Origin: Pelodera strongyloides | Lineage: Eukaryota; Nematoda; Chromadorea; Rhabditida; Rhabditidae | NCBI GenBank assembly: GCA_036852015.1 | Contig: JAANDG010000074.1 | Coordinates: 124,001-188,000, forward strand | Length of the DNA: 64,000 nucleotides | Direction of reading: 5' to 3' | Shown here: piece by piece, positions 21,604 to 43,984 of the stretch | Position numbering within the stretch: the stretch's first letter is position 1 | Layout of the letters: every line of letters begins with the position of its first letter | Notes under the pieces: generated by a model | Told to the model about the DNA's origin: nothing | The model's database searches: none | Seen by the model: the letters and a program-made list of their open reading frames with translations, nothing else | Translations under genes and position numbers: made by a program

Positions 21604-21949
21604 TTAATATGATGAACATACGATATTCCTTGTCTTGGGTCTGCACCATCCGATATTTGTGTTTGTGTTCTTGAAGAAGCAGAACTGTTCGTTACCACAT
21701 CCTTCGTCTCCGAAACACGTCTTCTGGAAATTTATAGAGATGCAATATAATAAAGAATAAAATAATACTTGCTTGCTAAAAACATTCTGTAATGAATTTT
21801 AAAATATTCCGAAGCTGGATGGTCGATACGTCATTTTACGCACAAGCTTTACACCAATGATAATTGTAAATGCAAAACATTGTTTGCTTATTGTTAGTGC
21901 AACGTACCTTCGGTGTATCAGTTACCGTTGGGTGAGCTCTTTTAGTTAC
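21604..21949 (-). CDS. Modular gene G, exons at 21.6-21.9 kb (copy 1)
   Basis: Two exons: 21949-21908 (42 bp, VTKRAHPTVTDTPK, between TTGTTCCAG and GTACGT) and 21723-21622 (102 bp) with C-x5-C-x5-C-x11-C. The second is near-identical in length and plan to the Cys exon at 37392-37291 (both begin KTC-FGDEGC and have IGWC). It ends at a GTATGT, which could be a donor. If not spliced there, the frame adds VCSSY and stops at 21604, so this may be the 3' end; an AATAAA lies downstream near 21285 on the minus strand. It belongs to the chain of phase-0 exons starting at 43984, or to a separate transcript whose leader I have not fixed. Confidence 0.6.
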
Positions 21950-22045
21950 CTGGAACAAACAAATTCAACAAAACAATTGTTTTTCTCTCTCTCACATGAA
22001 CATATGTATTGTAGTTTGATTGCATGAACGAAAAATTGGGGTATT

Positions 22046-22114
22046 GGACGAGTGGGGGTCGAACCCACGACCTCTGGATTACCGGTCCAGTATGCTAACC
22101 ACTACACTACCGCC
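22046..22114 (-). other. tRNA-like sequence (pseudo-tRNA or SINE head), copy 1
   Basis: On the minus strand: A-box-like TAGTGTAGTGGTTAGCAT, an anticodon arm CTGGA-CCGGTAA-TCCAG (anticodon GGT, Thr) and a perfect T arm GTGGG-TTCGACC-CCCAC. The acceptor stem does not pair well and the flanks form an extra inverted repeat (AACGAAATTTGGG and CCCAATTTTTCGTT). I therefore call it tRNA-derived rather than a working tRNA gene. A second copy is at 24541-24609. Confidence 0.55.
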
Positions 22115-22664
22115 ACCCACACCCAAATTTCGTTCTTGCTAGCGACTTATACGGCTCGCCTGCAACACACAGTGGGCGCATAGCACCACAACTATGTATT
22201 GTAAATTTATGTCCAGCCTTAAGAAAAATCGCTGGAACTACATAGTGTCCCATTTGTGTATTTGATATGAATAATTTGAAAAGGAACGAGTTACCGAATA
22301 AGTTAGGCCCCTAATTTAGTCAACGAAAATAAGTCTCAACATACAAAACGCATATCGTCCCCCCATGGATAGTTGGTAATCTAAAGAAAAAAGGTTAAGA
22401 AAGAGTATTGTTGTACGGAACAATAGGAAAGAATAGCACTTTTTAGGTCTGACGGCGTATTAATTCCCATACAACACAAATATAGTATTCTTTTTTTCTT
22501 ATTTTACCATACGTCAATTCGTTCTTGGAATATAGGTATATTCCTTAAACCCGACTGTGATATCATTTTCTTCGAAACTATTTAGAATTTGAGTAATGTC
22601 TGATGATTTCAATAGTCTTTTAAAGTTTTCTTACAAACAAGATACAAAACAAAGTACAAACAAG

Positions 22665-23190
22665 ATGAGTTCGGGCTGTTCAGTGATGGTTAGTGTCGAG
22701 CGGCCCGCCCTCCCTCCCAGTAATCACCCCTATGCTGATATGTTTGGTGTGCAGCGTATTATGATGAGTTCGGGCTGTTCAGTGATGGTTAGTGTCGAGC
22801 GGCCCGCCCTCCCTCCCAGTAATCACCCCTATGCTGATATGTTTGGTGTGCAGCGTATTATGATGAGTTCGGGCTGTTCAGTGATGGTTAGTGTCGAGCG
22901 GCCCGCCCTCCCTCCCAGTAATCACCCCTATGCTGATATGTTTGGTGTGCAGCGTATTATGATGAGTTCGGGCTGTTCAGTGATGGTTAGTGTCGAGCGG
23001 CCCGCCCTCCCTCCCAGTAATCACCCCTATGCTGATATGTTTGGTGTGCAGCGTATTATGATGAGTTCGGGCTGTTCAGTGATGGTTAGTGTCGAGCGGC
23101 CCGCGGTGGTCTCCGCGGTGGCATGTGACATCTTATCAGCAATATCATCGTCCTCCCTCCCAGTAATCACCCCTATGCTGATATGTTTGG
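22665..23190 (+). repeat. 99-bp minisatellite, block 1
   Basis: About five head-to-tail units beginning ATGAGTTCGGGCTGTTCAG. The last unit carries an extra stretch (GCGGTGGTCTCCGCGGTGG) before joining the second copy of the 2492-bp duplication. Confidence 0.9.
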
Positions 23191-24095
23191 TGTGACAGAA
23201 CACGGAAGGATACATAAAAAAAACTGTTTTTGGCAAATATGAACAAAAGAAAGTAGACCAAAAAATATACCGAAAGATGCAAAACGGACAAACAGTGCTA
23301 GTGATAACAAAAGCGAAACACTTGCAACAACCGTGCTTATATGCATGAAGAGCCGATGCGGAAGTTACCTCTATCTGCTTTTTAGAAACCTCGACTTTGT
23401 GGGACTAATACTAAAACGCCACCGACAGAAAGAAAAACAATATCGGAAGGTGGAAATCGTGTTGCCAGTAAAACAAGGCTCAAAAAGAAGATTTTTAGTG
23501 AACATACATTGTACAAAAAAAATTACATTATCGATTAATTAAATAGCGTGCTTTCACATTTATTTAGTTTTTAATATGATATTTTGTGTGTGCGTGAGTG
23601 TTTGGATACTTTTCATTTATAGGCTTACGTGTAACTTGCTTGTCTACTTTTTCATTGATAATAAAGTTTTGACTAAAAAGGTACTTCAACTGTGAACCGA
23701 GTATTTAGTCTTTAGTGAATCGGGAGGTGTCCAGAATAAAAAAAAGTAAGTTTACTTCAATAAAGATTTTATTTATAATGTAACATTAATTCATGCTCGG
23801 TGTCCTATAGATACGGTGGACCAGCAGGTGCTTTTTCATTCTGAAATTATGTACTTGTTTGCAACTTATACTAATATTGCGCGCGAGGAAATTGTTTCTA
23901 GCGCATGGAAAAAAACTGCCTACACATATTGGATAGATGTCAGTGGGATTTTTTTGTGGCCCGAAAAAATTACGGCCACCTGTCTTTTGCTCGTGCCTGT
24001 GAAGTAAAAGTCAATGTACATATTCGAATATGGTGACTTTTTAAGATGTTAAGATCTAGTAAGTATCGTCCTTGAATTCTTGAATTGAAGTTTCT

Positions 24096-24441
24096 TTAAT
24101 ATGATGAACATACGATATTCCTTGTCTTGGGTCTGCACCATCCGATATTTGTGTTTGTGTTCTTGAAGAAGCAGAACTGTTCGTTACCACATCCTTCGTC
24201 TCCGAAACACGTCTTCTGGAAATTTATAGAGATGCAATATAATAAAGAATAAAATAATACTTGCTTGCTAAAAACATTCTGTAATGAATTTTAAAATATT
24301 CCGAAGCTGGATGGTCGATACGTCATTTTACGCACAAGCTTTACACCAATGATAATTGTAAATGCAAAACATTGTTTGCTTATTGTTAGTGCAACGTACC
24401 TTCGGTGTATCAGTTACCGTTGGGTGAGCTCTTTTAGTTAC
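24096..24441 (-). CDS. Modular gene G, exons at 24.1-24.4 kb (copy 2)
   Basis: Duplicate of the exons at 21.6-21.9 kb: 24441-24400 (42 bp linker, VTKRAHPTVTDTPK) and 24215-24114 (102 bp, four-Cys with x11 last loop), with the same splice sites. They lie 5' of copy 1 on the minus strand. If transcribed through, they would add a further linker and Cys module in frame. The nearest upstream exon I recognise is 29981-29940, across the minisatellite, so linkage to it needs a very long intron. Confidence 0.58.
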
Positions 24442-24540
24442 CTGGAACAAACAAATTCAACAAAACAATTGTTTTTTTCTCTCTCTCACATGAACATATG
24501 TATTGTAGTTTGATTGCATGAACGAAAAAATTGGGGTATT

Positions 24541-24609
24541 GGACGAGTGGGGGTCGAACCCACGACCTCTGGATTACCGGTCCAGTATGCTAACCACTAC
24601 ACTACCGCC
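24541..24609 (-). other. tRNA-like sequence, copy 2
   Basis: Second copy of the tRNA-derived sequence at 22046-22114, identical through the A box, anticodon arm and T arm. Confidence 0.55.
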
Positions 24610-25159
24610 ACCCACACCCAAATTTCGTTCTTGCTAGCGACTTATACGGCTCGCCTGCAAAACACAGTGGGCGCATAGCACCACAACTATGTATTGTAAA
24701 TTTATGTCCAGCCTTAAGAAAAATCGCTGGAACTACATAGTGTCCCATTTGTGTATTTGATATGAATAATTTGAAAAGGAACGAGTTACCGAATAAGTTA
24801 GGCCCCTAATTTAGTCAACGAAAATAAGTCTCAACATACAAAACGCATATCGTCCCCCCATGGATAGTTGGTAATCTAAAGAAAAAAGGTTAAGAAAGAG
24901 TATTGTTGTACGGAACAATAGGAAAGAATAGCACTTTTTAGGTCTGACGGCGTATTAATTCCCATACAACACAAATATAGTATTCTTTTTTTCTTATTTT
25001 ACCATACGTCAATTCGTTCTTGGAATATAGGTATATTCCTTAAACCCGACTGTGATATCATTTTCTTCGAAACTATTTAGAATTTGAGTAATGTCTGATG
25101 ATTTCAATAGTCTTTTAAAGTTTTCTTACAAACAAGATACAAAACAAAGTACAAACAAG

Positions 25160-26009
25160 ATGAGTTCGGGCTGTTCAGTGATGGTTAGTGTCGAGCGGCC
25201 CTCCCTCCCAGTAATCACCCCTATGCTGATATGTTTGGTGTGCAGCGTATTATGATGAGTTCGGGCTGTTCAGTGATGGTTAGTGTCGAGCGGCCCTCCC
25301 TCCCAGTAATCACCCCTATGCTGATATGTTTGGTGTGCAGCGTATTATGATGAGTTCGGGCTGTTCAGTGATGGTTAGTGTCGAGCGGCCCGCCCTCCCT
25401 CCCAGTAATCACCCCTATGCTGATATGTTTGGTGTGCAGCGTATTATGATGAGTTCGGGCTGTTCAGTGATGGTTAGTGTCGAGCGGCCCGCCCTCCCTC
25501 CCAGTAATCACCCCTATGCTGATATGTTTGGTGTGCAGCGTATTATGATGAGTTCGGGCTGTTCAGTGATGGTTAGTGTCGAGCGGCCCGCCCTCCCTCC
25601 CAGTAATCACCCCTATGCTGATATGTTTGGTGTGCAGCGTATTATGATGAGTTCGGGCTGTTCAGTGATGGTTAGTGTCGAGCGGCCCGCCCTCCCTCCC
25701 AGTAATCACCCCTATGCTGATATGTTTGGTGTGCAGCGTATTATGATGAGTTCGGGCTGTTCAGTGATGGTTAGTGTCGAGCGCGGGCTGTTCAGTGATG
25801 GTTAGTGTCGAGCGGCCCGCCCTCCCTCCCAGTAATCACCCCTATGCTGATATGTTTGGTGTGCAGCGTATTATGATGAGTTCGGGCTGTTCAGTGATGG
25901 TTAGTGTCGAGCGCGGGCTGTTCAGTGATGGTTAGTGTCGAGCGGCCCGCCCTCCCTCCCAGTAATCACCCCTATGCTGATATGTTTGGTGTGCAGCGTA
26001 TTATGATGA
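25160..26009 (+). repeat. 99-bp minisatellite, block 2
   Basis: About nine units in plus orientation. The first two lack four bases in the CCCGCCC stretch and two others are fused at GAGCGCGGGCTG, so the 33-codon frame is not preserved. Unique sequence (26010-26116) follows. Confidence 0.9.
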
Positions 26010-26116
26010 GTTATCCGTATACTGTAACTTTTGATGATTCTCAATTTAGGCCTTTCTTTTCTTTAATTTTGTTATTTTACCAGCAAGCAGCTTGTACTCC
26101 AATTGAATATGTTTAT

Positions 26117-29100
26117 TGAATTGAATGTTTGGTGTGCAGCGTATTATGATGAGTTCGGGCTGTTCAGTGATGGTTAGTGTCGAGCTCGCTCGACACTAAC
26201 CATCACTGAACAGCCCGAACTCATCAATAATACGCTGCACACCAAACATATCAGCATAGGGGTGATTACTGGGAGGGAGGGCGGGCCGCTCGACACTAAC
26301 CATCACTGAACAGCCCGAACTCATCATAATACGCTGCACACCAAACATATCAGCATAGGGGTGATTACTGGGAGGGAGGGCGGGCCGCTCGACACTAACC
26401 ATCACTGAACAGCCCGAACTCATCATAATACGCTGCACACCAAACATATCAGCATAGGGGTGATTACTGGGAGGGAGGGCGGGCCGCTCGACACTAACCA
26501 TCACTGAACAGCCCGAACTCATCATAATACGCTGCACACCAAACATATCAGCATAGGGGTGATTACTGGGAGGGAGGGCGGGCCGCTCGACACTAACCAT
26601 CACTGAACAGCCCGAACTCATCATAATACGCTGCACACCAAACATATCAGCATAGGGGGTGATTACTGGGAGGGAGGGCGGGCCGCTCGACACTAACCAT
26701 CACTGAACAGCCCGAACTCATCATAATACGCTGCACACCAAACATATCAGCATAGGGGTGATTACTGGGAGGGAGGGGCGGGCCGCTCGACACTAACCAT
26801 CACTGAACAGCCCGAACTCATCATAATACGCTGCACACCAAACATATCAGCATAGGGGTGATTACTGGGAGGGAGGGCGGGCCGCTCGACACTAACCATC
26901 ACTGAACAGCCCGAACTCATCATAATACGCTGCACACCAAACATATCAGCATAGGGGTGATTACTGGGAGGGAGGGCGGGCCGCTCGACACTAACCATCA
27001 CTGAACAGCCCGAACTCATCATAATACGCTGCACACCAAACATATCAGCATAGGGGTGATTACTGGGAGGGAGGGCGGGCCGCTCGACACTAACCATCAC
27101 TGAACAGCCCGAACTCATCATAATACGCTGCACACACCAAACATATCAGCATAGGGGTGATTACTGGGAGGGAGGGCGGGCCGCTCGACACTAACCATCA
27201 CTGAACAGCCCGAACTCATCATAATACGCTGCACACCAAACATATCAGCATAGGGGTGATTACTGGGAGGGAGGGCGGGCCGCTCGACACTAACCATCAC
27301 TGAACAGCCCGAACTCATCATAATACGCTGCACACCAAACATATCAGCATAGGGGTGATTACTGGGAGGGAGGGCGGGGCCGCTCGACACTAACCAACAC
27401 CATCAACTGAACACTACAAACATCAGCCCGAACTCATCATAATATCATACGCTGCACACCAAACATATCAGCATAGGGGTGATTACTGGGAGGGAGGGCG
27501 GGCCGCTCGACACTAACCATCACTGAACAGCCCGAACTCATCATAATACGCTGCACACCAAACATATCAGCATAGGGGTGATTACTGGGAGGGAGGGCGG
27601 GCCGCTCGACACTAACCATCACTGAACAGCCCGAACTCATCATAATACGCTGCACAAAAACATAATATTAGGGATAGGGGGATGACTACTCACTGGCTGA
27701 GGGGGAGGGAGCGGGGCCGCTCGACACTAACCATCACTGAACAGCCCGAACTCATCATAATACGCTGCACACCAAACATATCAGCATAGGGGTGATTACT
27801 GGGAGGGAGGGCGGGCCGCTCGACACTAACCATCACTGAACAGCCCGAACTCATCAGCCCGAATATCATAATACGCTGCACACAAAACATATCAGCATGC
27901 AGGGGTGGGTGATTACTGGGAGGGGGGGGGCGGGCCGCTCGACACTAACCATCACTGAACAGCCCGAACTCATCATAATACGCTGCACACCAAACATATC
28001 AGCATAGGGGTGATTACTGGGAGGGAGGGCGGGCCGCTCGACACTAACCATCACTGAACAGCCCGAACTCATCATAATACGCTGCACACCAAACATATCA
28101 GCATAGGGGTGATTACTGGGAGGGAGGGCGGGCCGCTCGACACTAACCATCACTGAACAGCCCGAACTCATCATAATACGCTGCACACCAAACATATCAG
28201 CATAGGGGTGATTACTGGGAGGGAGGGCGGGCCGCTCGACACTAACCATCACTGAACAGCCCGAACTCATCATAATACGCTGCACACCAAACATATCAGC
28301 ATAGGGGTGATTACTGGGAGGGAGGGCGGGCCGCTCGACACTAACCATCACTGAACAGCCCGAACTCATCATAATACGCTGCACACCAAACATATCAGCA
28401 TAGGGGTGATTACTGGGAGGGAGGGCGGGCCGCTCGACACTAACCATCACTGAACAGCCCGAACTCATCATAATACGCTGCACACCAAACATATCAGCAT
28501 AGGGGTGATTACTGGGAGGGAGGGCGGGCCGCTCGACACTAACCATCACTGAACAGCCCGAACTCATCATAATACGCTGCACACCAAACATATCAGCATA
28601 GGGGTGATTACTGGGAGGGAGGGCGGGCCGCTCGACACTAACCATCACTGAACAGCCCGAACTCATCATAATACGCTGCACACCAAACATATCAGCATAG
28701 GGGTGATTACTGGGAGGGAGGGCGGGCCGCTCGACACTAACCATCACTGAACAGCCCGAACTCATCATAATACGCTGCACACCAAAACATATCAGCATAG
28801 GGGTGATTACTGGGAGGGAGGGCGGGCCGCTCGACACTAACCATCACTGAACAGCCCGAACTCATCATAATACGCTGCACACCAAACATATCAGCATAGG
28901 GGTGATTACTGGGAGGGAGGGCGGGCCGCTCGACACTAACCATCACTGAACAGCCCGAACTCATCATAATACGCTGCACACCAAACATATCAGCATAGGG
29001 GTGATTACTGGGAGGGAGGGCGGGCCGCTCGACACTAACCATCACTGAACAGCCCGAACTCATCATAATACGCTGCACACCAAACATATCAGCATAGGGG

Positions 29101-29398
29101 TGATTACTGGGAGGGAGGGCGGGCCGCTCGACACTAACCATCACTGAACAGCCCGAACTCATCATAATACGCTGCACACCAAACATATCAGCATAGGGGT
29201 GATTACTGGGAAGGAGGGCGGGCCGCTCGACACTAACCATCACTGAACAGCCCGAACTCATCATAATACGCTGCACACCAAACATATCAGCATAGGGGTG
29301 ATTACTGGGAAGGAGGGCGGGCCGCTCGACACTAACCATCACTGAACAGCCCGAACTCATCATAATACGCTGCACACCAAACATTCAATTCAATAAAC
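26117..29398. repeat. 99-bp minisatellite, inverted block
   Basis: Starts with a plus-strand piece (26117-26184), turns over at GTCGAGCTCGCTCGAC near 26185 and continues as about 30 units in minus orientation to about 29384. The distal edge (29385-29409) repeats, inverted, the AT-rich edge at 26101-26125 (CAATTCAATAAACATATTCAA). Several units have indels (for example near 26650, 26775, 27130, 27380-27450, 27660-27720 and 27850-27930). Confidence 0.9.
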
Positions 29399-29939: not shown

Positions 29940-32900
29940 GTAAATCGGTTTACCAAATGGGGTTGGATCTGGACGAGTTGTCTGAAGAGAATAAAGAAAG
30001 TTAGTGAAAATTAGCAATACTTTATGGTTGTAGTTAAGTCATTCGTTAAAGCGAAATACCGGCCGTTTTTTGAAACGCCTCGCGGACAACTGAGTTATTA
30101 GGTATTTATGCCCATTGATTCCCATTCAAATCGGTGTTTTATTCCAATTTATGTTCATTTGTAATGTAAAATTGAAAAAGAAATACTTCTTGTAAATTAA
30201 ATAAATAGGAGCCCATTAATAAGAACAGCATCTTCAGCACGGAATGTGAAAGATGCAAAGATCGTGGTTCAGAAGCCATTTCTATTATGCGTCTCTCTCT
30301 ATCTCTATCACATCTAAGTGGATATTCGCGACCCCGATGTATTGCCAGCGCTGGTAGGTTACATTCTACCATTACGTTTGGTATACCTTTGGAGTAGACT
30401 TTTTAGGTTTAGATAGAAAATCGATTGCCGCCGGCTCACCTGGCTCTGTGTCTCAATTATGTCCGATTTTCTTCGACACCAACCCGTTTTTTCTTGTCGT
30501 GATTTGAAAAAGCAAAACTCGTCGTGTCTGCATCCTTCGTCTTCTTCACAGTTTCGTCTCTAAAGTGGATTGTTGTTCCGGTTATCATTCTATGACAGAC
30601 GAAGAGACATAGCGAATCAAAGAAGTTCTCAAGAGCGTGGAACATACCACAGGCTGCCAAACTGGACGCGGCTGAAAATATGTTTTATATAGAAAGATAT
30701 TGGTTGTAACCAAATGTAAAAATTAGCTTCTAGTCTGGTTTGTGCGCGCTGCTCGCCATCAAGAGCATAAGCTTGTGGAAATCCGTAAGTAGGAATACGT
30801 ACACGTGCCTAGTAAACTTTCTAGGAAACAGTCACTATACTCTATCTTTTTTCTATTCGTCATGAATAGCAACACATTATTCTGTCACACAAACCAACTA
30901 ATGTGAGAGGCACAGAGGAAAACGCAGGAGTTCTCAAGAGCATGGAACATACCAAAGGCAGCACATCCGGCGGAGCAGTTGGGCGGCTGGGTGTCTGAAG
31001 AAAGAACAGATCAGAACTTGCCCCGACTTCTATATTCAAGGAACAAGCTAGCTTACTTCAAACAAATCTATATTTTTTTGCTAAACTTTGGAATAGATAT
31101 GTTACCCAATTGTTTCTCACTCCCATCTCTCTCCCTTCTCTCTCCCCCCCTCTCTCTCTCTCTTTTCTCTCTCTCCCTCTCTCTCTCCCTCTCGCTGTCT
31201 ATTAGAGGTGTTAGAGGTGTGCTCTTCTCAAGAGAAGAGAGCTCATGCACTTGAATGCATATTCGCGACCCATATGTACTGTCAGCTCTGGTAAGTTACT
31301 ACCTTTACCATTGGTAAACCTTTGGAATGGACTGTTTAGGTTTAGATAGAAAAAGGATTGCCGCTCGCTCACCTGAGATTGATTCTGAATTTCGTCCGAC
31401 TTGCTTCGACACCAGCCCGTTTTTTCGTGTCGTGTTTTCAAAAAGCAAACTTCGTCGTTTCGGCATCCTTCGTCTCCTTCACACGTTCGTCTCTAACGTG
31501 GATTTTTTTCGGTTGTCATGGATAGCAAAGGAAGGTTCTGTCACAGACGAAGAAGCAAAGAAAATCAAAGAAGTTGTCAAGAGCGTGGAACATACCACAG
31601 GCTGCCAAGTTGGACGTGGCTGAAAAGATTTTTTATATAGAAAGGTCATTAATTGTAACCAATGTAAAAGTTGCCTTCTAGTCTGGTTTGTGCGCGCTGC
31701 TCGCCATCAAGAGCATAAGCTTGTGGAAATCCGTAAGTAGGAATACGTACACATGCCTAGTAAACTTTCTAGGAAACAGTCACTATACTCTATCTTTTTC
31801 TAGGCGTCATGAATAGCAACACATTATTCTGTCACAGAAACAAACTAATGTGAGAGGCACAGAGGAAAACGCAGGAGTTCTCAAGAGCATGGAACATACC
31901 AAAGGCAGCACATCCGGCGGAGCAGTTGGGCGGCTGGGTGTCTGAAGAAGAAACTTACAGAAAAGATCAGAACTTGCCCCGACTTCTATATTCAAGGAAC
32001 ACGCTAGCTTACTTCAAACAAATCTATATTTTTTGCAAACCTTTGGAATAGATATGTTACCCAATTGTACTCATTCCCATCTCTCTCCCTTCTCTCTCCC
32101 CCCCTCTCTCTCTCTTCTCTCTCTCCCTCTCTCTCCCCCTCTCGCTGTCTATTAGAGGTGTTAGAGGTGTGGTCTTCTCAAGAGAAGAGAGCTCATGCAC
32201 TTCGAATGCATATTCGCGACCCAGATGTACTGTCAGCGTTGGCAAGTTACTACCTTTTCCATTGGTATACTTTTGGAATAGGCTGTTTAGGTTTAGATAG
32301 AAAAAGGATTGCCGCTCGCTCACCTGAGATTGATTCTGAATTTTGTCCGACTTGCTTCGACACCATCCCGTTTTTTCGTGTCGTGTTTTCAAAAAGCAAA
32401 TTTCGTCCTTTCTGCATCCTTCGTCTCCTTCACACGTTCGTCTCTAAAGTGGATTTTTTGTTCCGGTTGTCATGGATAGCAAAGGAAAGTTCTGTCACAG
32501 ACGAAGAAGCAAAGAAATTCAAAGAAGTTGTCAAGAACGTGGAACATACCACATGCTGCCAAGTTGGACGTGGCTGAAAAGATTTTTTTATATAGAAAGG
32601 TCATTAATTGTAACCAATGTAAAAGTTACCTGCTAGTCTGGTTTGTGCTCGCCACTAAGAGTGTAGCCATGTAAGTAATTCATTCGTGGGAATACGTACA
32701 CAAAGCTCAGTAAACGTTCTAGGAAACATTCACTATTCTATATCTTGTTCCAGGCGCCACGAATAACAAAACATTATTCTGTCACACAAATAAGCTACTA
32801 ATGTGAGAGGCACAGAGGAAAACGCAGGAGTTCTCAAGAGCGTGGAACATACCAAAGGCAGCAGAGCCGGCGGTTCAGTTGGGCGGCCAGATGTCTGAAG

Positions 32901-33839
32901 AAGAAACTCGCAGAAAAGATCAGAACCTTCTATATTCAAATGTGAACACGCTAGCTTACTTCAAACAAATCTACATTTTTTGCTAACCTTTGGAATAGGT
33001 ATATTGTCCAACTGTGTCTCACTCCCACCTCTCACTCCCATATCTCTCTCTCTCTCTTTCGCTTTCTCTCTCTCTCTGTCACTGTCTACCTTTATCTTTG
33101 GTATACATTTCGACTTTGGAACAGCCTATATAGGATAAGTCAGAAAAATGATTGCCGCTCGCACACCTGACTCTGTGTCATATCCGTCTTTCTTCGACAC
33201 CAGCCCGTTTTTTCTTGTCGCGTTTTCAAAACGCAAACTTCGTCGTTTCTGCATCCTTCGTCTCCTTCACACGTTCTTCTCTGAAGTTGTTTTTTTGTTC
33301 CGGATGTCATGGATAGCAAAGCATGAGACTGTCACACAATTCGACTAGAGGGGCAAAGCAAATCAAAGAAGTTTGGAACATACAAAAGGCAGCGTGCCAA
33401 CAGGGCGACGTGTTGTCTCTGTCTGAAAAACAAAACGTAAAGAAAAGGTTACTGACACAAAGCTAAAGTGAGTTCTAGTCGGGATTGAGCGTGTGAACTA
33501 TTGTCAACAACCCATCGAAGACAGAAACCGCTGTGTACGAATACATATGTCGAGGTGATATTGCAAGTAATCTGCCGATAACTTTTCTCAAGTGAGTTGA
33601 ACTTACCCGCATCTCTATAACCCGGTCATCTGGTTTGCGAGTTGTCTGAAAAATAGAGAAAACTAATTGTTTATATCTCGTTTACATCATGATTCCATGT
33701 ACTCTCGGAAGAGAGCACACACGCTATATTCGCGATCTCGAGGTACTGGCCCCACTTCTTATTTCAAACAAATCTGTAAAGTTGTGTTGGTGCATACCTG
33801 TGGAATAGGCAGGATACCGGGAATGGGGAAGCCAGTTTC
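29940..33839 (-). CDS. Modular gene G, tandem micro-exon/Cys-exon array
   Basis: Phase-0 exons, 5' to 3': 33839-33798, 33645-33607, 33422-33384, 33280-33167 (Cys), 33011-32988, 32894-32853, 32573-32550, 32443-32324 (Cys), 32282-32271, 31941-31900, 31619-31596, 31492-31373 (Cys), 31331-31320, 30994-30953, 30671-30648, 30559-30440 (Cys), 30398-30387, 29981-29940. The four Cys exons (38 or 40 codons) have C-x5-C-x5-C-x11-C with EGDEGC and TGWC motifs. Linkers are 12 bp (SIPK, PIPK), 24 bp (PRPTWQPV, LDNIPIPK), 39 bp and 42 bp (TPSRPTAPPDVLPL). Nearly all have acceptors like TTTCAG and donors GTATGT, GTGAGC or GTACGT. The cassette repeats about every 0.9 kb, so it grew by tandem duplication. The exon set is inferred from sequence; transcription and exact joining are not shown. 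Confidence 0.68.
30050..30166. mobile_element. Family-5 MITE, partial
   Basis: Starts after TTAA with AGCGAAATACCGGCCG and the TTTTTTGAAACGCCTCGCGG core; the right arm is missing. Confidence 0.55.
31110..31195. repeat. CT-rich microsatellite
   Basis: CTCTCTCC-type run within the exon array. Homologous runs occur at 32083-32145 and 33020-33085 at the same place in each duplicated cassette. Confidence 0.85.
32083..32145. repeat. CT-rich microsatellite
   Basis: Second copy, same cassette position as 31110-31195. Confidence 0.85.
33020..33085. repeat. CT-rich microsatellite
   Basis: Third copy, more interrupted. Confidence 0.8.
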
Positions 33840-34009: not shown

Positions 34010-37000
34010 CTTTGGTTCAGATGTGCGGTCCTTCGTGAAGCAGACGCCGACAGCTCGGGAATATGTCAAAAGGCAAAACTCGCCCGTTCTACACTCTTTG
34101 TCTGCATTACACTTTCTCTAAATTAGAGGGCATGGGCACGAAACTAAAAGGTTACTGGCTATAGGTTCTTCAGACAAAATCCGTGATGACTCAAAGCATG
34201 AAGTCATCTCCATGGTAGGCACCTCGTTAATATATATACGCAAGAAGTATTTTTTTGTATGTGAGTTTTATCAATATTACGTACCAATCTTGGCATGGTG
34301 GAAGGGAAAGGACGCAATTCAGGACGGGAACCTGTCTGAAAAATAAATAAACGCTAGGTGAGAATTGTAGGCCCTCCTATGAAGCTAACATCGTCCTAGA
34401 GTGAATAGGCTCTCCTCGTGAGCTCTGAGTGCTTTATCGGTGTTCGAAGAAAGACGCGAGAAAAAGGAGGAGGCTCACGAGTTTTAAGTGTTCGATTACT
34501 TTCCTTTTTTCGAAAAACATGGTAAATAAGCACCCACAACATGCATAACCAAGCGCGGAAACACACTTTAAAGAAATTATTTATTTAAGAAAATAATTTA
34601 ATTTAAAAAAACGACCGTATGTGTTTAAAACCACCAATGAAACAAAACAAATATGCGCGCAGCGTGCATAACAGTAAACAGGTGTGCCTTTCTTTTGAAC
34701 TACAAAGTACACAGGCGGTTCGTGCGCATATTTTCAGCAACATATTAGCCCGATGTGGCCGGTTATTTACACGGAGGCTGTTTTTGTATGTGTTGTCTTA
34801 CCCTGAAAAATAACTATAAGTATAAACTGTGGTTTTTTTTAATTGATTTTTTTAGATAAAATTTTATATTTACTTTAAAGGGAATATGTATGCCCTTTTT
34901 GAAGTTAAGCTGTATTAATAGAATGTGTGTTCCTCATTAAGGAAACAACAACAAAAATTGTTAAAAGTTTCCCATTTAAAAGAAAATGATTTTCAAAGTT
35001 CATCTTTTCCATAGTAAACGCGTTGCTTGACCCCCTGGCTTACACGGCAGTGCTGATGGAGCAAAAAATTTTGCATATGTGTGCATACATCGGCATATAG
35101 CATGCAACAGCGACATATTTGCATGCAAATGAGAATATTCGAATTTACATATTCAGTCGCCTACTTAAATTCATGTCTGGTGTGGAAACTCTAGTTTCGC
35201 AGTTGTTTTGCTCATTTTGAGTGCCTACATATTCCCTTTAAAGTGTATTTCCGCGCTTTTTTCTGCATTTTACTGGTGTTTATTTACCATATCTTTCGAT
35301 AAAAGGAAATGAATCGAACACTTAAAACTCGTGAGCCTCCTGCGTACCAGATTAGCAACAGCTGACAGATAACTTTTCATAAAAATGGAAAGTGCTAGCT
35401 GAAAAAATTAAGATAGTATAAGATAGTATAAGTTAACCTCAACGTACAAGCGACGTACGGAAAACATTGTCATGCTTCAGTATCAAGGGTAAAGTGGCTT
35501 CAAGCCATATGTTGAAATACGCAAATTTTACTGATGTTATTTTCGCTGTATAGGCAGAGAGCTCGATGAATCTGGAGTCAGAAACAAGCTCAATGTCGAA
35601 CTAACTATTTAATGGACATTTCTGTTCATTCGAATCATGCATTTCGAAAGCGCCGTCAAGAGCCTCAATCGATACATCAACACTAACTAACTAGTAGCTA
35701 CTAGCTATGTGAGTGCATTCACCTTTTTGGCATCTTCCTTTTTAGCTTCTTCACTGGAGCTAGACTTATCCTTGGGCTAAAATTGCGATTACGTTAGAGG
35801 CGAATGAGCCTTTTGTATGAAGAACCTGCCACTGGACCACCCGGCCCAGTGGCAGATTCTTCATACAAAATCCGTGAAGACATCTCTTTAATGATGGGTA
35901 CTTCGTTAATACATACGCAATGTGTATGCATATGTATATATGTATATACGCAAGAAGTATTTTTTTGAGGTACGTAAGAGTTATATTATACGTACCAATC
36001 TCGGCACAGTAGAAGGGGAAGGGCGCAATTCAGTAAGGGCGCCTGTCTAAAAAAAACGCTAAGTCAGAACTGTACACTCCCTAAGGAAGCTAACATCATC
36101 CTAGGAAAAACCAATTCACTAATGCAGCACCATGTGCATGTATGCTCAAGCATATACGGGCTTATACGTTAGACTCTTGAAGAATAATCAGAAGGAGGTT
36201 CTACATAAACAGTTAACCCTTTTATTATACATTTATAAGTTGTTTAGCTACGTAGCGCATGCGGACTCCTGCGGGTGGAGGGTAGTGACGATGCTAGGCC
36301 CCTACTTCACTTGTGTGATGGCCCTGAGAGCGTATTTGCTTGTTGATTACTGTGGTTGTGTACTTTTATGTGTTGCACGTTTAGGTTTGTTGAGAACGTG
36401 AACACGTAGTTCTTTTGTTGAGGTAACGTGGCTAAATTAAACTAAAAACAAAATACGGGTTGGCTGTGTATGTGGGACCAAATTCTTTGTTTCGCTTTCA
36501 ACATTTTCTTTGTGAACTCTTGTGGATTTACATCTATATACATATACTGTTGGTGGAATTATTTCCAAGTATCTATATTATCTACTTTGATTTTTTCTTT
36601 TCATCGTCTCTCACGGCGTTGCGCTCTTTTAATGAGTATAATAAATATTCAAATATTCAATAGGCTCTCCTCGCGAGCTCTCAGTGTTGAAACCGGAGTT
36701 CGAAGGAATACGCAAATTAACGTACCAGATTACCACTTCCCGATAGCACCCTTTCCAGAAGGGAGAAAAATGATCGCTGAAAAAATATATAAAGAAAGCA
36801 TAATTTAAAGAAGGCCTGTGGTGCAGCGGTACAAGCGACGTATAGAAAACATAGTCAAGCTTCAGCGATTCAAGCCATGTTGAGATACGCAAATGTTACT
36901 GATGTTCACTGAATAGCTAGAGTGTTCGACTTTAAATCTGGAGTCTAGCTCAATATCGAACTAACTAATTGTTGGACGTTTCTGTTCAATCGAATTATGC

Positions 37001-38170
37001 ATTTCGAAAGCGCCCTCGATAGCCTTACTCGGTACACCATCACTAACTGACTACTAGTTATGTAAGTAAGTGCATTCACCTTTTTGGTACCTTCCTTTTT
37101 AGTTTCCTCACTGGAGCTAGACTTATCCTTGGACTAAAATTGCCAAAAAATAATAATAAAACAAAGACGAGCTTTAGGATTGCCTGCTGCTTCGCCTCAT
37201 ACCGGTCAGGTGCACAGGCGGAGTAAAATTAGGTGAATATGTATTAATATAATCATAATCACATCGTTTTATTTTAAAGAATACACCTACGATATGCCTC
37301 TTCTTCGAACGGCACCATCCGATATGAATAGAAGACTTTTTGAAGTTGCAGAATTTGTGGCCCGGGCAGCCTTCATCTCCGAAGCAGGTCTTCTGCAGTA
37401 ACTTTTACGATGCAAATCAAATCAACTGAATTGTCAATCTTTTTTTTCCAATGTGGAAAAAAATGAAAGAAAAGGTCTGTTTAGATTCCCACTAGGAAAG
37501 CCTGTAAAGCACTGTCTTCGCTTACACAATTTGAACGAATGAAACGGAACTTACTCTATGTCTGTGTCTACGTGAGGTATTTACTGTAAGCATGGCATCA
37601 GCGGAGTTTGCAGGATTCTGAATATGCAATCCGTAAGTTCAATAGCATAAGACAAGGATGTATGTACTAGTCAGATTTTAAACGTGCTACCGTCATCCTT
37701 CTGAACTATTTATGCGACATTGTCAATTTCTTGTCTTTTTTATTAAAAAAATAACGAAAAGATTAGCTCACGAGATGCCTTTTCGAACGACACCATCCGA
37801 TATTTGTAGTTTTGTGTTGGAAGTAGCAGAATTTATGGTCCGGACAGCCTTCATCTCCGAAACACATTTTCTGCAATTCATGTTACATGAAGTTTACTCC
37901 ACACAACTTCATGTGAAGGTTTATAATAAGTAAGTTTAGAATGAATTAGTTATATGCTACTGTGTGTAATAAACCCTTTGCACAATGTGGCTACCCTTCT
38001 AAATAAGTAGTGAGTCTTCGTTTTCCGTTTGTTCAAGATATTTTTTTGCAAGCGCGTCTTATGATACGTAATTGACTCACTCTATGTCTGAATCTGCGCT
38101 TGTTATTTTCTTCGTTTCCTCGTACTGCGGTCTCAGATTCAGGTGCAAACTTACCGCCGGGTGCTAGAGA
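34010..38170 (-). CDS. Modular gene G, middle exon block
   Basis: Phase-0 exons, 5' to 3': 38170-38081 (90 bp, ends RRFRHR), 37870-37772 (Cys), 37617-37555 (63 bp, ends RRHRHR), 37392-37291 (Cys), 37133-37080 (SKDKSSSSEETKKEGTKK), 36776-36726, 36046-35996, 35776-35723 (PKDKSSSSEEAKKEDAKK), 35398-35348, 34335-34285, 34117-34010 (Cys). The three Cys exons show C-x5-C-x5-C-x(10-11)-C. The basic RRxRHR ends may be protease sites or charged linkers; that is a guess. The 54, 51, 51 bp trio occurs twice in order, so it is a duplicated three-exon cassette. Splice sites are mostly GTAAGT, GTGAGT, GTACGT or GTGAAT with T-rich TTCAG or TTTAG acceptors. Confidence 0.68.
34465..35341. mobile_element. Family-2 MITE, long form
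   Basis: Ends AGGAGGAGGCTCACGAGT and complement. It lies in an intron of gene G (between 35398-35348 and 34335-34285). The paralogous intron near 36715-36720 has an uninserted TTAA, so the target duplication here has been lost. The arms contain GAACACTTAAAACTCG and long AT-rich centres. Confidence 0.8.
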
Positions 38171-38338
38171 CTGAAAGCTATCCACTTGTATGACAAATAC
38201 GCACGACAAACGTTTTCTTTGTAAACAACACAAAATTCATATACAAAAATAGTACACATTCTCTGTTTTCCGAATCAGATTAAAAAATTTTACAGTACTG
38301 AATTGATACTTGTATTATATGTACTTTTATTTACAACC

Positions 38339-38477: not shown

Positions 38478-39026
38478 TGCTTTAAAGAATAATCTTTCCA
38501 ATATTCAATTATAGTCGAAGTAAAATGACGAATTTGAAGTGAATGCCTTCCTTTAACGACATTAAATGGTCAAGCCCCATATGAAACTCACTAAAGCTGA
38601 CAATGTGAGAGTTTTGTAGGTAATTCATGGTTCACGATCAGCAAATATGCATATTGGTAAGCACCACACATACCAACGGGTACTTGTGCAAAATAAGGAT
38701 TGTTGTGGAAGCATGAGATAGTTGCAATTATTGTTGATCAATACATTTCTGCTTATAAATTAGGCTGCATTTTTTTAAACTTTCCATAACAGCGGACCCC
38801 GTATTGTAGTGTATGTTGTAAATGTAAAATCCGACTATGACGGGTTGGAAAGCATACCATACATCATAAGTTAGCCTCAAATTGCTTTTAAACAGTCGCA
38901 CAAGTAGGTTGTGAAACATCAACTAACAAAGGTTCTCACTATTCTCACATACAACCCGAAGCCCGCACGAAGCCGAACTAGCCCGAAGAAGTCGAGCAAT
39001 TTGTCACCTGGAACTCGTCGCCTACT

Positions 39027-39605
39027 GAGGCCATTTTCACCAACATTTACTTCTGTCAAAAAGGGTACTAAGCCGACTAAGCGCGCGGTACATCCGGTTT
39101 CACCAACATTTACTTCTGTCAAAAAAGTACTTTGGTTAAGTATCTTTTGACAGAAGTACGCCTATGGCATGGCAGGCGTACTTAGACCAAAAAGGTGGAA
39201 GTATCCCGGTACTTCGGTTTTTTCTCCATTATGAGAGCTGATCAACTCAACTTGTTTAATAATTGCATGGTTTTTATGGTAAATGACTTTGTAAACATTA
39301 GATAACAATGATTTCACTTTTTGAATCACTTTTCACATATTAATAAAGTCATTACACACTTGATTATTTAGCTATTTCTTGTTTACATGGTAAATAACTT
39401 TTAGCAATTAGTTAGATGTATAGTATATTCGAGTTAAAAAGTAATCTATCTCTTATCCAAAGTTTTCCTTCAAAACAAGTAAATGTTGGTGAAATCCATC
39501 AAAAAGTGTGTTGCAGCGCACTTCAGTCATAAACTTACTCAACCTAACTACCTTTTTGATGGTCAAAAATTTATGACAGAAGTAAATGTTGGTGAAAACG
39601 GCCTC
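39027..39605. mobile_element. Foldback element, GAGGCC ends
   Basis: Arms contain TTTCACCAACATTTACTTC and complement; related to 3690-3837. An extra internal copy of the CACCAACATTTACTTCTGTC word occurs near 39098. It lies between gene G exons 39990-39850 and 38170-38081. Confidence 0.75.
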
Positions 39606-39849
39606 TGCTCAGTACCTCTGCGGAACGTGTCATAAGCGAACCTTCAAACTGTCTTTTCACCCCTGAATAAAGATGCACGCTCTTGAAGCGTAAAAAGGAC
39701 TTAAAAGGAATAGAATTTAAATAACAGTGAAAATTGTTGCTAGCCTGGACCAGAAGCGCGCTTATTGGTATAATAATAATAAAGTTTGCGCAATTAGCCC
39801 GTATTACACCACCGCTAGTTGCATTTCGTCTGAATACAAATTGACCTAC

Positions 39850-42800
39850 GAGCTGAGTGATCTTTTTCGCACAGAAACCAGTCGGTCTACCAATCGGTCT
39901 ATCGAACTTCTTGATACGTCGACAATATTCGTCTTCTTTACAATCTTCATTAACCCGACATCTACCATGCGGACCTCCTTGAGAAGGCATCTTAAGATTT
40001 AATCATTTTCTGAAGCTAGTGGTTTTATGGAATTCTAAAAATAAAGCTCAAGTTGCAACCAATCAGCCACGTGTGTAACGTGCACGTAGAATGAATGCCT
40101 TTGGACCGGCTATACACGACCCTCGTTTGAGTTTAGAAGTTTACACTCTTTTGATTTTATAACTGGTAACAGGTAAAGACAAATTCGAAAAAGTTGTTTA
40201 GTGTCCCAAAAAAAAATAGAGCGTCATGTCATCGCTAGGTTCATGTTATGGGGCTGCTGAGCGAGTTTATTTATGTTTTGGACTTATGAGCTTGACTGGT
40301 CCCTATGTGGATGCTGTGAAACACATTAACATACGGGTTTGGTGGCCACTTCCTTCTTTTTCACACAGTAACCACTTGGTACATAGGAACGGCGGTAATA
40401 TCGACAACGTTCGTCCTTCGCACAATCACTAGACCAGCGACATTTTCCAAATGGATTTCGTTGTTTACTTGTAGCAGGAGGGCTTACTGTTGATGACTGA
40501 AATCGGTAATCATTCGTTGCACAAAATTTTGTTTCTACCTTTCAACAATAGAAAAATATAAAAAGGGACTGATTCAGGAGAAAAAGTTTTTCCCAACTTA
40601 TCTGAAAAAAATATCCGGAATTTTAGTAATATTACTGTAAAAACCGCATTGTTTGAAGCCTAGAACTCACAGAGTTATCCCACGGCAAACAGTTTCGTCA
40701 GGTACCGTAGTCTGAACCAATTTTTTTTTTGCGCTTTCAGGCCATTCCTGTATTGGAAACGCCTCCTCTTTAGAATCGTCAGAATGGTCTTTATTCGTTT
40801 CAACATGTTGAAAAAGAATGCAAACGCATATTAATAGGTTTGGGGTTACTGACTACGGTATCTGGCCGAACTGTTTGCCGGCGAGTTGAAATTCCGTACA
40901 TTCGGTACAAGTAAATTGAGGAACAGTTTTACTCTCGAGAGCTTGTTAAAGCGAAATGCTAGCCCCTTTGGAAAATTTGCATATGATAAGCAAATCCTAT
41001 GTATCCTTTTAGGATTTGGCAATTTCGTACGATCGTCCACGGCAATCGTACAAAATTAGCATAGGATACATATGATTTGCTTATCATCTGCAAATTTTCC
41101 TAAGAGGCTAACATTTCGCTTTAAATAAATAATAAACAAATAATAAACAAATAATAAATAAATAATAAACAAACAAATAAATAAATAATAAATAAATAAT
41201 AAATAAATAATAAATAAATAATAAATAATAAAAATAATAAATAATAATATAATAATAAATAATAAATAATAAATAATAAATAAATAATAAATAAATAAAT
41301 AATAAATAATAATATAATAATATCCCCTACCTACTAAATCCCTAAATACCCTCCTCCCTAAATCATCCCTCATAATCCTAAATAAATAATAAATAATAAA
41401 TAAATAATAAATAAATAATAAATAAACAAATGAGCCTTTAATATTTTTTAGAAGTGAAGAATTGTTGCAGAATACGGGCTTGCTGGCGACTTCATTCTTT
41501 TTCGCTAACTCAAGACCCACTTGTGTAATATGCACAAAGTAAGAAAGCCAATGAAAGGACTCTATGTTCCATAGGTCACCCTTAGTTTGAGCTTGGGGTG
41601 ACCGGTAAAGAAAGATGCATAATTTTCGGAAGGGATTACCGGTGTCTGGTTATGTTTGCGCCAAAAATGCTATGTTTCGGCTCCAAATCGATATGCAAGG
41701 CATACCGACTCTCATAGAGAGAATGAGTAAATACTAATAAAAGATTTAGAATCTGTGGCATATAATTCTCACGAATTCCAGAAAATCTAATGAAATTCCA
41801 GACACTAACGTTCAATATACATGGTTATGAGCTTTCATCGCAATTTTGGTGATTGATCCAACGGGATGTCTAACAGGTTGAAAAAAAACTAGCTGAGATA
41901 CTTCTCTAGTAAGGGCAGATTCATTCATATAGTGAAGCATTAAAAATTAACATACGGTCATCGTCAACAGGCAACGGCCAAACGAAACGTCTCCCCTAGG
42001 CTTGAGGGGAAATGAACAATATTCGTCCTTCCTGCATTGTCTACTCGAGAGGCATGAATTAAGAGACGAAGTTCGTCGTGTTGTTCCAGTTTCTTGTACA
42101 TCACTGGGCTTCCTTGTAAACGGCACAGGGTTGCGTCGAAACTAAATTTAGTTAATTTCGTAAAAGGCAGAGAAAATACGCCAAATTAATGCATACTACA
42201 CTAAGAAAACCAGACTGGAATGTGTGTTAAAATAAAATAAAAAGCTGGTTGTAAATTATGTGGTTTGTCACTTATGCACACATGCACAGACAAAACTTCG
42301 GTGCTACTGCCGTTGGGGGGGGGGGGGCACCAATTTTTTTTGAAGGGGTTCTTCGATCGGTCTGAAACTTCACCCAGATGGATAACAGGCCACGCCGAAT
42401 CGATCTACGCTATCAATTTTATCAAATTATCGATTTATTGATTTTTTTTTCAAATTTTTTTCCGGCTCCAAAAAGGGTTCTGGTCACCCAATTTCGCTGA
42501 ACCTTCTTCCCAACGTTGTAAGAAACTAAGCGTAACTGATCTAAATCGTTAAAGCCAATGTTTTCTGTCTGTTTTCTATTTATTGATTTTCAAGTAAAGT
42601 CTAGAGTCTATATAAGGCTCGGGTTCAGGTCCAGAGTGGTAAGGATAGGACGCATCGAGGGACTTGTAGAGTGGAAAGGAAACGCAGTGTATGTTCATGA
42701 CTGTGACCAGCCCTCACAGTGCCTATTCTTTAAATTCTACTGATTGATTGTGGTTTACGACTAGCCGGGTGTACCCCCGAAGACGGAAAATCAATAAATA

Positions 42801-43984
42801 GATGATTTGACTGAACATGTTGGCTTATATCGATTGTAGTCAGTGTGGGGTCAGTTACTCCCTTGGAGAAAAGATCAGCGAAATTGGGCAACCAGAACCA
42901 TTTTTGGAGCTGAAACAAATTTTGAAAAAAAATCAATAAATCGATAATTTCATAAAACTGATAGCGCAGATCGATTCGGCGTGGCCTGTTATCCATCTGG
43001 GTGAAGTTTCAGCTCGATCGGCTAGCCCTTTACAAAAAAAATTTGGTGCCCCCCCCCCCCCCCCCAACGGCAGTAGCACCAAAACTTCTAAAACAACGGC
43101 AGATTAAACCGGACGCAAAATATTTAACTAATCGTGTCAGAAGTAGTCAAAGTGTCAAAGGGCACCTAAGAAAAAGAAAGCACAAGCACGACAGTTAATT
43201 GTTGATCCATCGTCTCATGCAGTTGCAAAAAAATAGTGGATGGACTACCCTATTTAGGTTTGGCGAAACGCCAGCGACTTTCATTTTCTTTCCTTTGAGA
43301 AATATTCCTATTCCTCCCCTTCCACATATACATTCAATGTACAATATCCTCTATGAAGCTGAAACCTAATCAACTTTGCGAGTTCACTGCAGTACAACAT
43401 TACAGGTTTGTTGAACTGGTTTTTCAACAGTCCACATGTCTAGGTAACACACTGATAATATTAGTGAAGGAATAAAAAAAAACATACCACATCTTGTGTG
43501 ATCTTATATCTGCAATACCCAAGCGTACGATTGTAAAAGTTAAATGTACAGTGTTCGAACTTTTCGCATTCTTTACTCGATAGGCATCTCTTCTACAAGG
43601 AAATCTTTGAAAAATGAATCAGGCGCAACTATGTTTAACCAATTGTGTCAAAAGCGTCAAAGCCATCACAAGAAAAAGCAAGCACAAGCACGTCGTTTAT
43701 TGACGGTTGATTAATCGTCTTATGAGGCTTTCAAAAACAGCGGATGGACCACACCGTTTAGTTTTGGCAAATCGCCCGCGTCAAAATTTTAATTGGCGAT
43801 CTCGCTGCTACACATAAAGAAAATATTTTTAGTTGGCTAGGACAATTTTGCTTGGCTAGGACGATTTAACAATACTAACCTTAGTATTTAAGTTAAACAT
43901 ACTGCACTAAAATTGTTATACCTCTAATCCAAATACGTTTGCAAGGCATATCGCCAAGCAAAGAGAGAAAAGCAGCCCTCGCAT
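39850..43984 (-). CDS. Modular gene G, 5' block with signal peptide
   Basis: Exon 1, 43984-43922 (21 codons), encodes a signal peptide (MRGLLFSLCLAICLANVFG) and ends at GTATAA. Then four Cys exons, all phase 0: 43592-43488 (35 codons, last loop x11), 42141-41956 (62 codons, x14), 40496-40335 (54 codons, x12) and 39990-39850 (47 codons, x16). The last three carry Arg/Pro/Thr/Ser-rich sequence before the first Cys, so a linker and Cys module share one exon. Donors are GTATGT three times and GTAGGT; acceptors TTGTAG, AATTTAG, GATTTCAG and a poor CTTAAG for 39990. This is the only leader exon I found upstream of the array, so the chain 43984 to 21604 may be one gene of about 870 codons with up to 13 Cys modules, or several overlapping transcripts. 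Expected to be secreted; function unknown. Confidence 0.7.
40950..41120. mobile_element. Foldback MITE, TTAA-flanked
   Basis: Ends AGCGAAATGCTAGCC and complement, TTAA on both sides, 171 bp; inner ATAGGATACATATG-type words pair. Confidence 0.82.
41121..41430. repeat. AAATAAT simple repeat
   Basis: Long (AAATAAT)n/(AAAT)n run with a short non-repetitive break near 41325-41375. The 159-codon minus-strand open frame over it is low-complexity Tyr/Ile/Leu and not a gene. Confidence 0.9.
41475..41525 (-). pseudogene. Decayed partial copy of the Cys exon at 40496-40335
   Basis: The minus-strand reading KKNEVASKP matches the C-terminal end of that exon (KKKEVATKP), followed by GTATTC where the real exon has GTATGT. 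The Cys codon before it is lost and the flanking intron sequence is also similar. It looks like a remnant of an exon duplication. Confidence 0.5.
42300..43080. mobile_element. Foldback DNA element with 8-bp target duplication
   Basis: Arms GGTGCTACTGCCGTTGGGGG and complement, with poly(G)/poly(C) tracts and about 200 bp of imperfect pairing (CATCTGGGTGAAG, CGATTCGGCGTGGCC). AAAACTTC occurs on both sides (42292-42299, 43081-43088). An 8-bp duplication suggests hAT- or Merlin-type mobilisation; I cannot tell which. No transposase frame. It lies in a gene G intron. Confidence 0.82.

Follow-up and report, generated by a model that had tools for sequence, protein, structure and literature searches.

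Schistosome micro-exon genes (MEGs) carry about 80% of their coding sequence in symmetric exons of 6–36 bp (PMC5825161, from the portion of the article available), and MEG exons have been described as 6–81 bp in length, most of them 15 bp (PMC10526429, likewise from a portion); the accessible part of PMC4413821 mentions microexon genes in its methods. In Nasonia, nasonin-2 and nasonin-6 consist of 4–5 defensin-like domains, with one exon per domain in nasonin-6, an arrangement that the available text of that study credits to exon duplication (PMC2853521). Tropoelastin (ELN) is encoded by 34 exons specifying two kinds of domain, with a single exon per domain, and alternative splicing is known there (PMC7947355, in the sections available). 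No nematode system of comparable form appeared among the matches listed for micro-exon genes and for exon duplication of cysteine (Cys)-rich domains, as judged from the titles and abstract starts of open-licence papers. Here we describe a gene in a 64,000-nucleotide window of the nematode Pelodera strongyloides (assembly GCA_036852015.1, contig JAANDG010000074.1, called C74 below, bases 124001–188000). Its DNA reveals an open exon structure governed by a frame rule, exon lengths that are kept against intron indels, and a position within a cluster of small genes sharing the same Cys motif. Positions given below are those of the window unless contig bases are named, and genome searches covered the 160-Mb assembly with its 1171 contigs.

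The window contains one intact gene model on the minus strand, running from 43984 to 23805 (about 20 kb) and made up of 35 exons with 2499 nt including the stop codon, which predict a protein of 832 amino acids (Table 1). One signal-peptide exon is accompanied by 12 exons that each encode a domain with four cysteines (four-Cys exons), 21 short linkers and one terminal exon. All 35 lengths are divisible by three, every join is phase 0, the 33 internal exons are without exception symmetric phase 0, and a stop or frameshift was found in none of the 35. A common intron phase is likewise a property of tropoelastin exons. The predicted protein has 50 Cys, with the spacing Cx5Cx5Cx10-16C in all 12 domains. 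Four-Cys exons span 99–186 nt and have both a phase-0 acceptor and a phase-0 donor in 12/12 cases; linkers measure 18, 24, 36, 39, 42, 51, 54, 63 or 90 nt, the median internal exon being 51 nt. Counted over 20 of the 21 linkers (293 amino acids), linker composition is 14.7% Pro, 10.9% Thr, 10.2% Arg and 9.6% Ser. The signal peptide of exon 1 was called by hydropathy, and this leader predicts that the product is secreted, in line with the secreted Cys-rich protein proposed by an earlier sequence-only reading of the same DNA.

The first version of the model, with 34 exons, came from reading the minus strand with splice sites refined by script, and its exons were partly picked for being in frame; the 35th (33839–33798, 42 nt) came from a splice scan independent of the model. 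The sequence-only reading had expected any subset of exons to stay in frame, which is true of the modelled exons, and its linker lengths of 24, 39, 42, 51, 54, 63 and 90 nt all recur, but its 12-nt linker is not in the model, which adds lengths of 18 and 36 nt. A 12-nt in-frame exon candidate that may correspond to this 12-bp linker lies between two linkers (34813–34802, minus strand) and was seen in a relaxed intron scan only; that scan gave three extra rows left out of the model, namely this one and two versions of one stretch at 41099. By eye, a possible relic exon copy was also noticed at 41527–41470 on the minus strand, reading ...NEVASKP and then GT, much as the four-Cys exon at 40335 ends (EVATKP).

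Like schistosome MEGs, the locus has a leader exon, runs of symmetric exons that are mostly multiples of three, and a predicted secreted product. It differs in exon size: exons of at most 36 nt number 6/35 and account for 162 of 2499 nt (6.5% of the coding sequence, against about 80% in schistosome MEGs), those of at most 81 nt number 22/35 and account for 930 nt, and both the median internal exon and the four-Cys exons are long by MEG standards. Protein variants are documented in schistosomes, whereas the present gene is known from DNA. The assignment to the micro-exon gene class made in the sequence-only reading is thus not upheld by the published size rule, but the gene could still work like a MEG. 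The closest described route is that of the exon-duplicated nasonins, which share with this locus a repeated small Cys-rich secreted domain and exon duplication beside single-domain relatives; in the text available, they differ in having 4–5 domains and phase-1 introns, in that no separate linker exons are mentioned, and in that the domain is insect defensin-like and not four-Cys (PMC2853521). The nasonin-like features found here are one domain per exon, a common phase (12/12 four-Cys exons are 0-0) and single-domain paralogues in a cluster. In exon plan, the closest analogue is tropoelastin, which is a vertebrate elastic matrix protein without a four-Cys domain.

Because the exons of the first model had partly been chosen for being in frame, a separate scan was made to look at the frame rule. 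Splice scores trained on the four-Cys exons were dropped because they would be circular, and were replaced by a generic, untrained consensus (a TTN[CT]AG-like acceptor with at least four T, and a GTRNG donor), with the four-Cys exons masked. On the minus strand of the gene interval, the scan gave 19 acceptor–donor pairs with a multiple-of-three length (16 open), versus 5 pairs one base longer than a multiple of three (1 open) and 4 pairs two bases longer (2 open); on the plus strand of the same interval, the corresponding counts were 9, 5 and 9 pairs (1, 1 and 6 open). Control windows elsewhere on the contig (54, half-overlapping) held a mean of 2.0 open multiple-of-three pairs with a maximum of 8, and jittering the donor positions gave a mean of 4.8 and a maximum of 11, the value of 16 being reached in 0/400 runs. 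The 16 open linkers are not independent, several of them being tandem copies. Fifteen of the first model's 20 linkers were recovered together with one new linker, and the 90-, 63-, two 54- and 18-nt ones were missed. These results confirm that an excess of open multiple-of-three linkers is present in the DNA. The earlier claim that all exons are multiples of three with phase-0 ends therefore holds for 35/35 exons of the model and is matched by an excess that does not depend on it.

Tandem copies within the gene show what has been kept. Three tandem units of about 950 bp each (A, B and C, 32894–30440) can be aligned in pairs over 186 exon bases, and the three pairs have no exon indels versus 11, 17 and 12 intron indels. 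A block of three linkers at 37133–35996 is repeated at 35776–34285, with the lengths of 54, 51 and 51 nt all kept, although the aligned stretches are 74–82% identical with many gaps. Among four tandem four-Cys exons, nonsynonymous divergence (dN, 0.026–0.129) is below synonymous divergence (dS, 0.106–0.451) in 6/6 pairs, compared over the first 33 codons with 4–15 changes per pair. The pair formed by four-Cys exons 5 and 6 has a dN of 0.183 and a dS of 0.824, and two linker pairs have dN values of 0.096 and 0.151 with dS values of 0.111 and 0.462. Conservation is clearer for exon length and frame than for sequence, and the comparisons point weakly to a protein-sequence constraint on the tandem four-Cys exons.

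A leader-exon scan restricted to phase-0 donors found no leader-like exon in the 20-kb gene interior, which favours one 5' entry and hence a single gene, probably headed by exon 1 as the sequence-only reading had it (43984–43922). The same scan, in which one ATG can yield several entries, gave 21 entries on the strand of the gene and 5 on the other in contig 124–204 kb, with 15 and 12 in the other 198 kb read. At the other end, the gene stops at the terminal exon 23840–23805, and a tandem duplication of about 2.4 kb (20702–23104 and 23194–25591, 99.5% identical over 2406 columns with 1 mismatch, the rest being gaps) spans this 3' end. The duplication is either very recent or an assembly artefact. 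Its lower copy holds second copies of three linkers, of the last four-Cys exon (21723–21622) and of the terminal exon; the 2.5 kb upstream of this four-Cys exon gave no leader candidate. The lower copy could serve as a second 3' end, be dead or be an artefact of assembly. This copy explains the thirteenth four-Cys exon and the lower bound of the sequence-only reading. The proposed sizes of 99–186 bp and the total of 13 four-Cys exons are right, but 12 belong to the gene; likewise, the expected 37 or so exons after the leader become 34 in the model, and the stretch down to 21604 is a copy of the last exons and not part of the same chain.

Repeats accompany this end of the gene. Tandem arrays with a 99-bp unit, present in either orientation and with long open frames on each strand, occupy parts of 22664–29384, one block lying in the intron 29939–24876 and one below the terminal exon. 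A coding role of the array was considered and rejected, since pieces of the unit, mostly 60–300 bp, occur on dozens of other contigs and mark it as a dispersed repeat. A tRNA-like sequence on the minus strand (48 bits with Rfam, none with ARAGORN) is present once in each copy of the duplication, at 22044–22115 and 24539–24610, the latter being intronic. An element of about 118 bp at 30046–30163 and 18646–18763 is also dispersed over many contigs, often as inverted pairs.

The gene lies among small genes with the same motif. A strict motif, Cx5Cx5Cx7-18C, was found at 31 places on both strands of contig 124–204 kb and at 0 places in the other 198 kb read, the count covering the first 278,000 of the contig's 367,917 bases. 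Thirteen of these places fall in the gene and its 3' copy and one is likely a chance hit, leaving about 17 for small genes in an 80-kb cluster. One or more leader candidates, some of them weak, were found by the phase-0 scan within 2.5 kb upstream of 18/20 anchors (one anchor being the first domain of the large gene itself), the two anchors without a candidate being the duplicated 3' end and one plus-strand place. When small-gene places were scanned without regard to phase, the first good acceptor met upstream of the four-Cys exon was phase 0 in 12/18, was not found in 6 and had another phase in 0. A consensus donor was present in 9/15 small-gene leader candidates, and the first donor was phase 0 in 9/9, for leaders that had been pre-picked by the phase-0 scan. 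Several of the small genes stop soon after the fourth Cys and are candidates for secreted peptides of about 50–60 amino acids. Candidates for small secreted four-Cys genes occupy 1–20400 and 44000–64000 on both strands and continue to about contig base 203000. A single Cys-rich open frame of 316 amino acids, without a Pfam match at E <= 1, was noticed at 56984–57934 on the minus strand.

Four protein queries against the genome matched contig C74 only (8, 2, 2 and 3 places), in a search whose first step passes few candidates, such that distant paralogues may escape. The cluster of small single-domain genes, which the sequence-only reading had missed, hints at the source of the cassettes. Given that paralogues were found on this contig only and that the neighbours share phase 0, the large gene most likely arose from a small relative whose exons, already in phase 0, were duplicated.

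Taking these observations together, we favour, with moderate confidence, a single secreted multi-domain gene that was exon-duplicated within the small-gene cluster and makes a long precursor cut into four-Cys peptides. A phase-0 exon with one four-Cys domain would have been duplicated repeatedly, together with short Pro/Thr/Arg-rich linker exons, and the primary product would be a long secreted precursor carrying most or all cassettes. Cleavage at basic pairs just before most domains would then release many four-Cys peptides with Pro/Thr-rich tails, which may be extracellular ligands, of a defence type or otherwise. A basic pair (KR, RR or RK) occurs within 3 residues before the first Cys in 8/12 domains versus 9% of background triplets (binomial 1.6e-6), and in 5/9 when four tandem copies are counted once (binomial 5.5e-4), suggesting cleavage into separate peptides. 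Exon skipping would always be in frame under the phase rule and probably occurs to some degree.

Several points weigh against this precursor reading. Four of the 12 domains have no basic pair before the first Cys, and basic pairs also lie inside five domain cores. RK, a weaker cleavage site, makes up 3/8 of the pairs. The multi-domain defensins of Nasonia were reported without processing signals in the accessible text (PMC2853521). An intron of 5 kb (29939–24876), which contains part of the repeat array, parts exons 29940 and 24875, and the exons 3' of it could come from a different transcript. Substitution per base is not clearly lower in four-Cys exons than in introns (0.042 and 0.074 for A–B, 0.175 and 0.219 for A–C, 0.183 and 0.161 for B–C), the 42-nt linkers of units A and B differ by 0.167, and the linker pair RSFF/LALS has a dN of 0.69 versus a dS of 0.40. 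Both the gene model and its product are predictions from DNA, and the proposed function is read from architecture.

Free skipping of cassettes after the logic of MEGs, giving many variants with a common signal peptide and last exon, is possible though unlikely. The symmetric phase of 33/33 internal exons, the short linkers with a median internal exon of 51 nt and a duplicated 3' end offering a second terminal exon would suit such a system, but exon duplication alone would yield symmetric exons, and exons of at most 36 nt contribute only 6.5% of the coding sequence. Linker splice sites also score below those of four-Cys exons, as would befit skipping; however, the splice model was trained on four-Cys sites, which partly accounts for the weaker linker scores. 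That one gene, by splicing freely combinable phase-0 cassettes, supplies a whole library of proteins made of disulfide mini-domains, diversified further by basic-pair cleavage, seems to us doubtful. We are similarly sceptical of a constitutive structural protein of matrix, cuticle or mucus that stays uncut, like tropoelastin or other exon-duplicated matrix proteins. The 832 residues in domain–linker order with Pro/Thr/Ser/Arg-rich linkers fit such a protein, and tropoelastin domains are likewise single exons of a 34-exon gene (PMC7947355, sections available). By contrast, the motif-sharing neighbours resemble single small secreted peptides rather than matrix proteins, and basic pairs are enriched before domains. 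Mutually exclusive choice of one or a few four-Cys exons per transcript, making the gene a library of single-domain peptides like those of its neighbours, is improbable: in its favour, single-domain candidates are the local norm, and the 12 domains differ in sequence with the leader and the last exon common to all, but interdomain linkers with kept lengths in the tandem units suggest that domains are joined in one product. Finally, it is very improbable that the exon array is decaying, with the tandem four-Cys copies left as relics and no long transcript that works. The very recent 3'-end duplication, the repeat array inside an intron and tandem-unit exon substitution rates near those of introns would fit decay; 0/35 exons with a stop or frameshift, dN below dS in 6/6 tandem pairs and no exon indels speak against it.

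Searches for relatives among known proteins found no homologue. A 609-residue joined query of the large gene yielded 6393 word-sharing candidates with none at E <= 0.01, and a 13-sequence alignment of small cluster proteins yielded 170 candidates with none at E <= 10, in nr and UniRef, which returned nematode COX1 and hence include nematode proteins; a relative that shares no 5-residue word with the query, or whose length falls beyond the limits set, would be missed. Dickkopf_N (PF04706) matched 10/20 exons at E <= 1, mostly over about half of the model, with a best score of 23.9 bits (E 5.2e-5); 0/20 exons exceeded the curated cut-off of 25 bits, as did 0 of 21 weak places in the genome, many of them on other contigs (C72, C273 and others). 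DX (PF01666) matched 5/20 exons at E <= 1 with a best score of 14.2 bits, 0/20 being above its curated 25-bit cut-off, and gave no match in the genome, though control genomes gave none either. Both families are short Cys modules like the present one, from which they are set apart by all matches falling below 25 bits. In a small cluster gene at 60747–60812, Squash inhibitors scored 21.0 bits (cut-off 22) and Toxin_12 scored 15.9 (cut-off 21).

A fold search with an AlphaFold2 model of the domain encoded by four-Cys exon 10 returned no match at E <= 0.001. Its neighbours among solved structures were largely small disulfide-rich proteins (evasin-3, a two-disulfide form of MCoTI-II, tachystatin B, the Dkk4 N-domain and defensins), and any likeness to two-disulfide hairpin and cystine-knot peptides would consist in these structural neighbours, none of them at E <= 0.001. 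Two-disulfide folds are treated in PMC4942781 and PMC3694633, each available in part. Across 29 motif sequences (the 31 strict-motif places, leaving out a duplicate and a probable chance hit), the residue midway through the second loop is G or P in 10/29 and D in 10/29. In the two-disulfide (DDH)/knottin consensus, this position is Gly or Pro. The best solved structure by sequence, a conotoxin at E 0.024 over about 20 residues, was taken as a chance likeness of Cys spacing and rejected. The four-Cys family looks lineage-restricted, with no relative found in the proteins searched.

Exons of the gene, the duplicated 3' end and three small cluster genes are listed in Table 1. COX1 from the assembly, translated with the invertebrate mitochondrial code, is 94% identical to a Litoditis cluster and 91% identical to a Caenorhabditis briggsae cluster, as befits a rhabditid nematode. 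On another contig of the same assembly (C892), three COX1 copies with equal scores in two orientations were seen, probably a mitochondrial concatemer in the assembly.

Table 1. Window positions of the modelled exons in order of transcription, followed by the 3' copy and neighbouring genes
Feature	Position	Strand	Remark
Exon 1, signal peptide MRGLLFSLCLAICLANVFGLE, 63 nt, phase-0 donor gtataa	43922..43984	-	small cluster genes have leader exons resembling it
Four-Cys exon 1, 105 nt	43488..43592	-	
Four-Cys exon 2, 186 nt	41956..42141	-	
Four-Cys exon 3, 162 nt	40335..40496	-	sole other genome match at E <= 1 is the adjoining four-Cys exon 4
Four-Cys exon 4, 141 nt, acceptor ttaag	39850..39990	-	
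Linker, 90 nt	38081..38170	-	missed by generic scan
Four-Cys exon 5, 99 nt	37772..37870	-	
Linker, 63 nt	37555..37617	-	missed by generic scan
Four-Cys exon 6, 102 nt	37291..37392	-	
Linker, 54 nt, three-linker block copy 1	37080..37133	-	missed by generic scan
Linker, 51 nt, block copy 1	36726..36776	-	recovered by generic scan
Linker, 51 nt, block copy 1	35996..36046	-	recovered by generic scan
Linker, 54 nt, block copy 2	35723..35776	-	missed by generic scan
Linker, 51 nt, block copy 2	35348..35398	-	recovered by generic scan
Linker, 51 nt, block copy 2	34285..34335	-	recovered by generic scan
Four-Cys exon 7, 108 nt	34010..34117	-	
Linker, 42 nt, ETGFPIPGILPIPQ	33798..33839	-	discovered by generic splice scan
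Linker, 39 nt	33607..33645	-	recovered by generic scan
Linker, 39 nt	33384..33422	-	recovered by generic scan
Four-Cys exon 8, 114 nt	33167..33280	-	
Linker, 42 nt, tandem unit A	32853..32894	-	recovered by generic scan
Linker, 24 nt, unit A	32550..32573	-	recovered by generic scan
Four-Cys exon 9, 120 nt, unit A	32324..32443	-	
Linker, 42 nt, unit B	31900..31941	-	recovered by generic scan
Linker, 24 nt, unit B	31596..31619	-	recovered by generic scan
Four-Cys exon 10, 120 nt, unit B	31373..31492	-	domain modelled with AlphaFold2
Linker, 42 nt, unit C	30953..30994	-	recovered by generic scan
Linker, 24 nt, unit C	30648..30671	-	recovered by generic scan
Four-Cys exon 11, 120 nt, unit C	30440..30559	-	
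Linker, 42 nt	29940..29981	-	recovered by generic scan
Linker, 36 nt	24840..24875	-	recovered by generic scan
Linker, 42 nt	24400..24441	-	recovered by generic scan
Linker, 18 nt, weak donor, least certain exon	24261..24278	-	missed by generic scan
Four-Cys exon 12, 102 nt	24114..24215	-	
Terminal exon, NEKAPAGPPYL*	23805..23840	-	AATAAA at 23773, 32 nt further on
Duplicated 3' end	21313..22380	-	second copies of three linkers, last four-Cys exon and terminal exon
Four-Cys exon, separate small neighbour gene	19318..19419	-	leader candidate begins 20386
Four-Cys terminal exon, another small cluster gene	59231..59311	-	leader candidate begins 59822
Four-Cys exon, another small cluster gene	62074..62160	-	leader candidate begins 62665

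The locus places likely source and product side by side, with small single-domain genes and one 12-domain gene having a common intron phase. How a multi-domain secreted protein was built up through exon duplication can be read directly from it, and recent steps are visible in the tandem units and in the 99.5% identical 3' copy. It represents exon duplication of secreted domains on a large scale, with linkers interleaved, and its family is one for which no relative was found. If splicing also mixes the cassettes, the gene would extend micro-exon-like generation of diversity beyond the flatworms.

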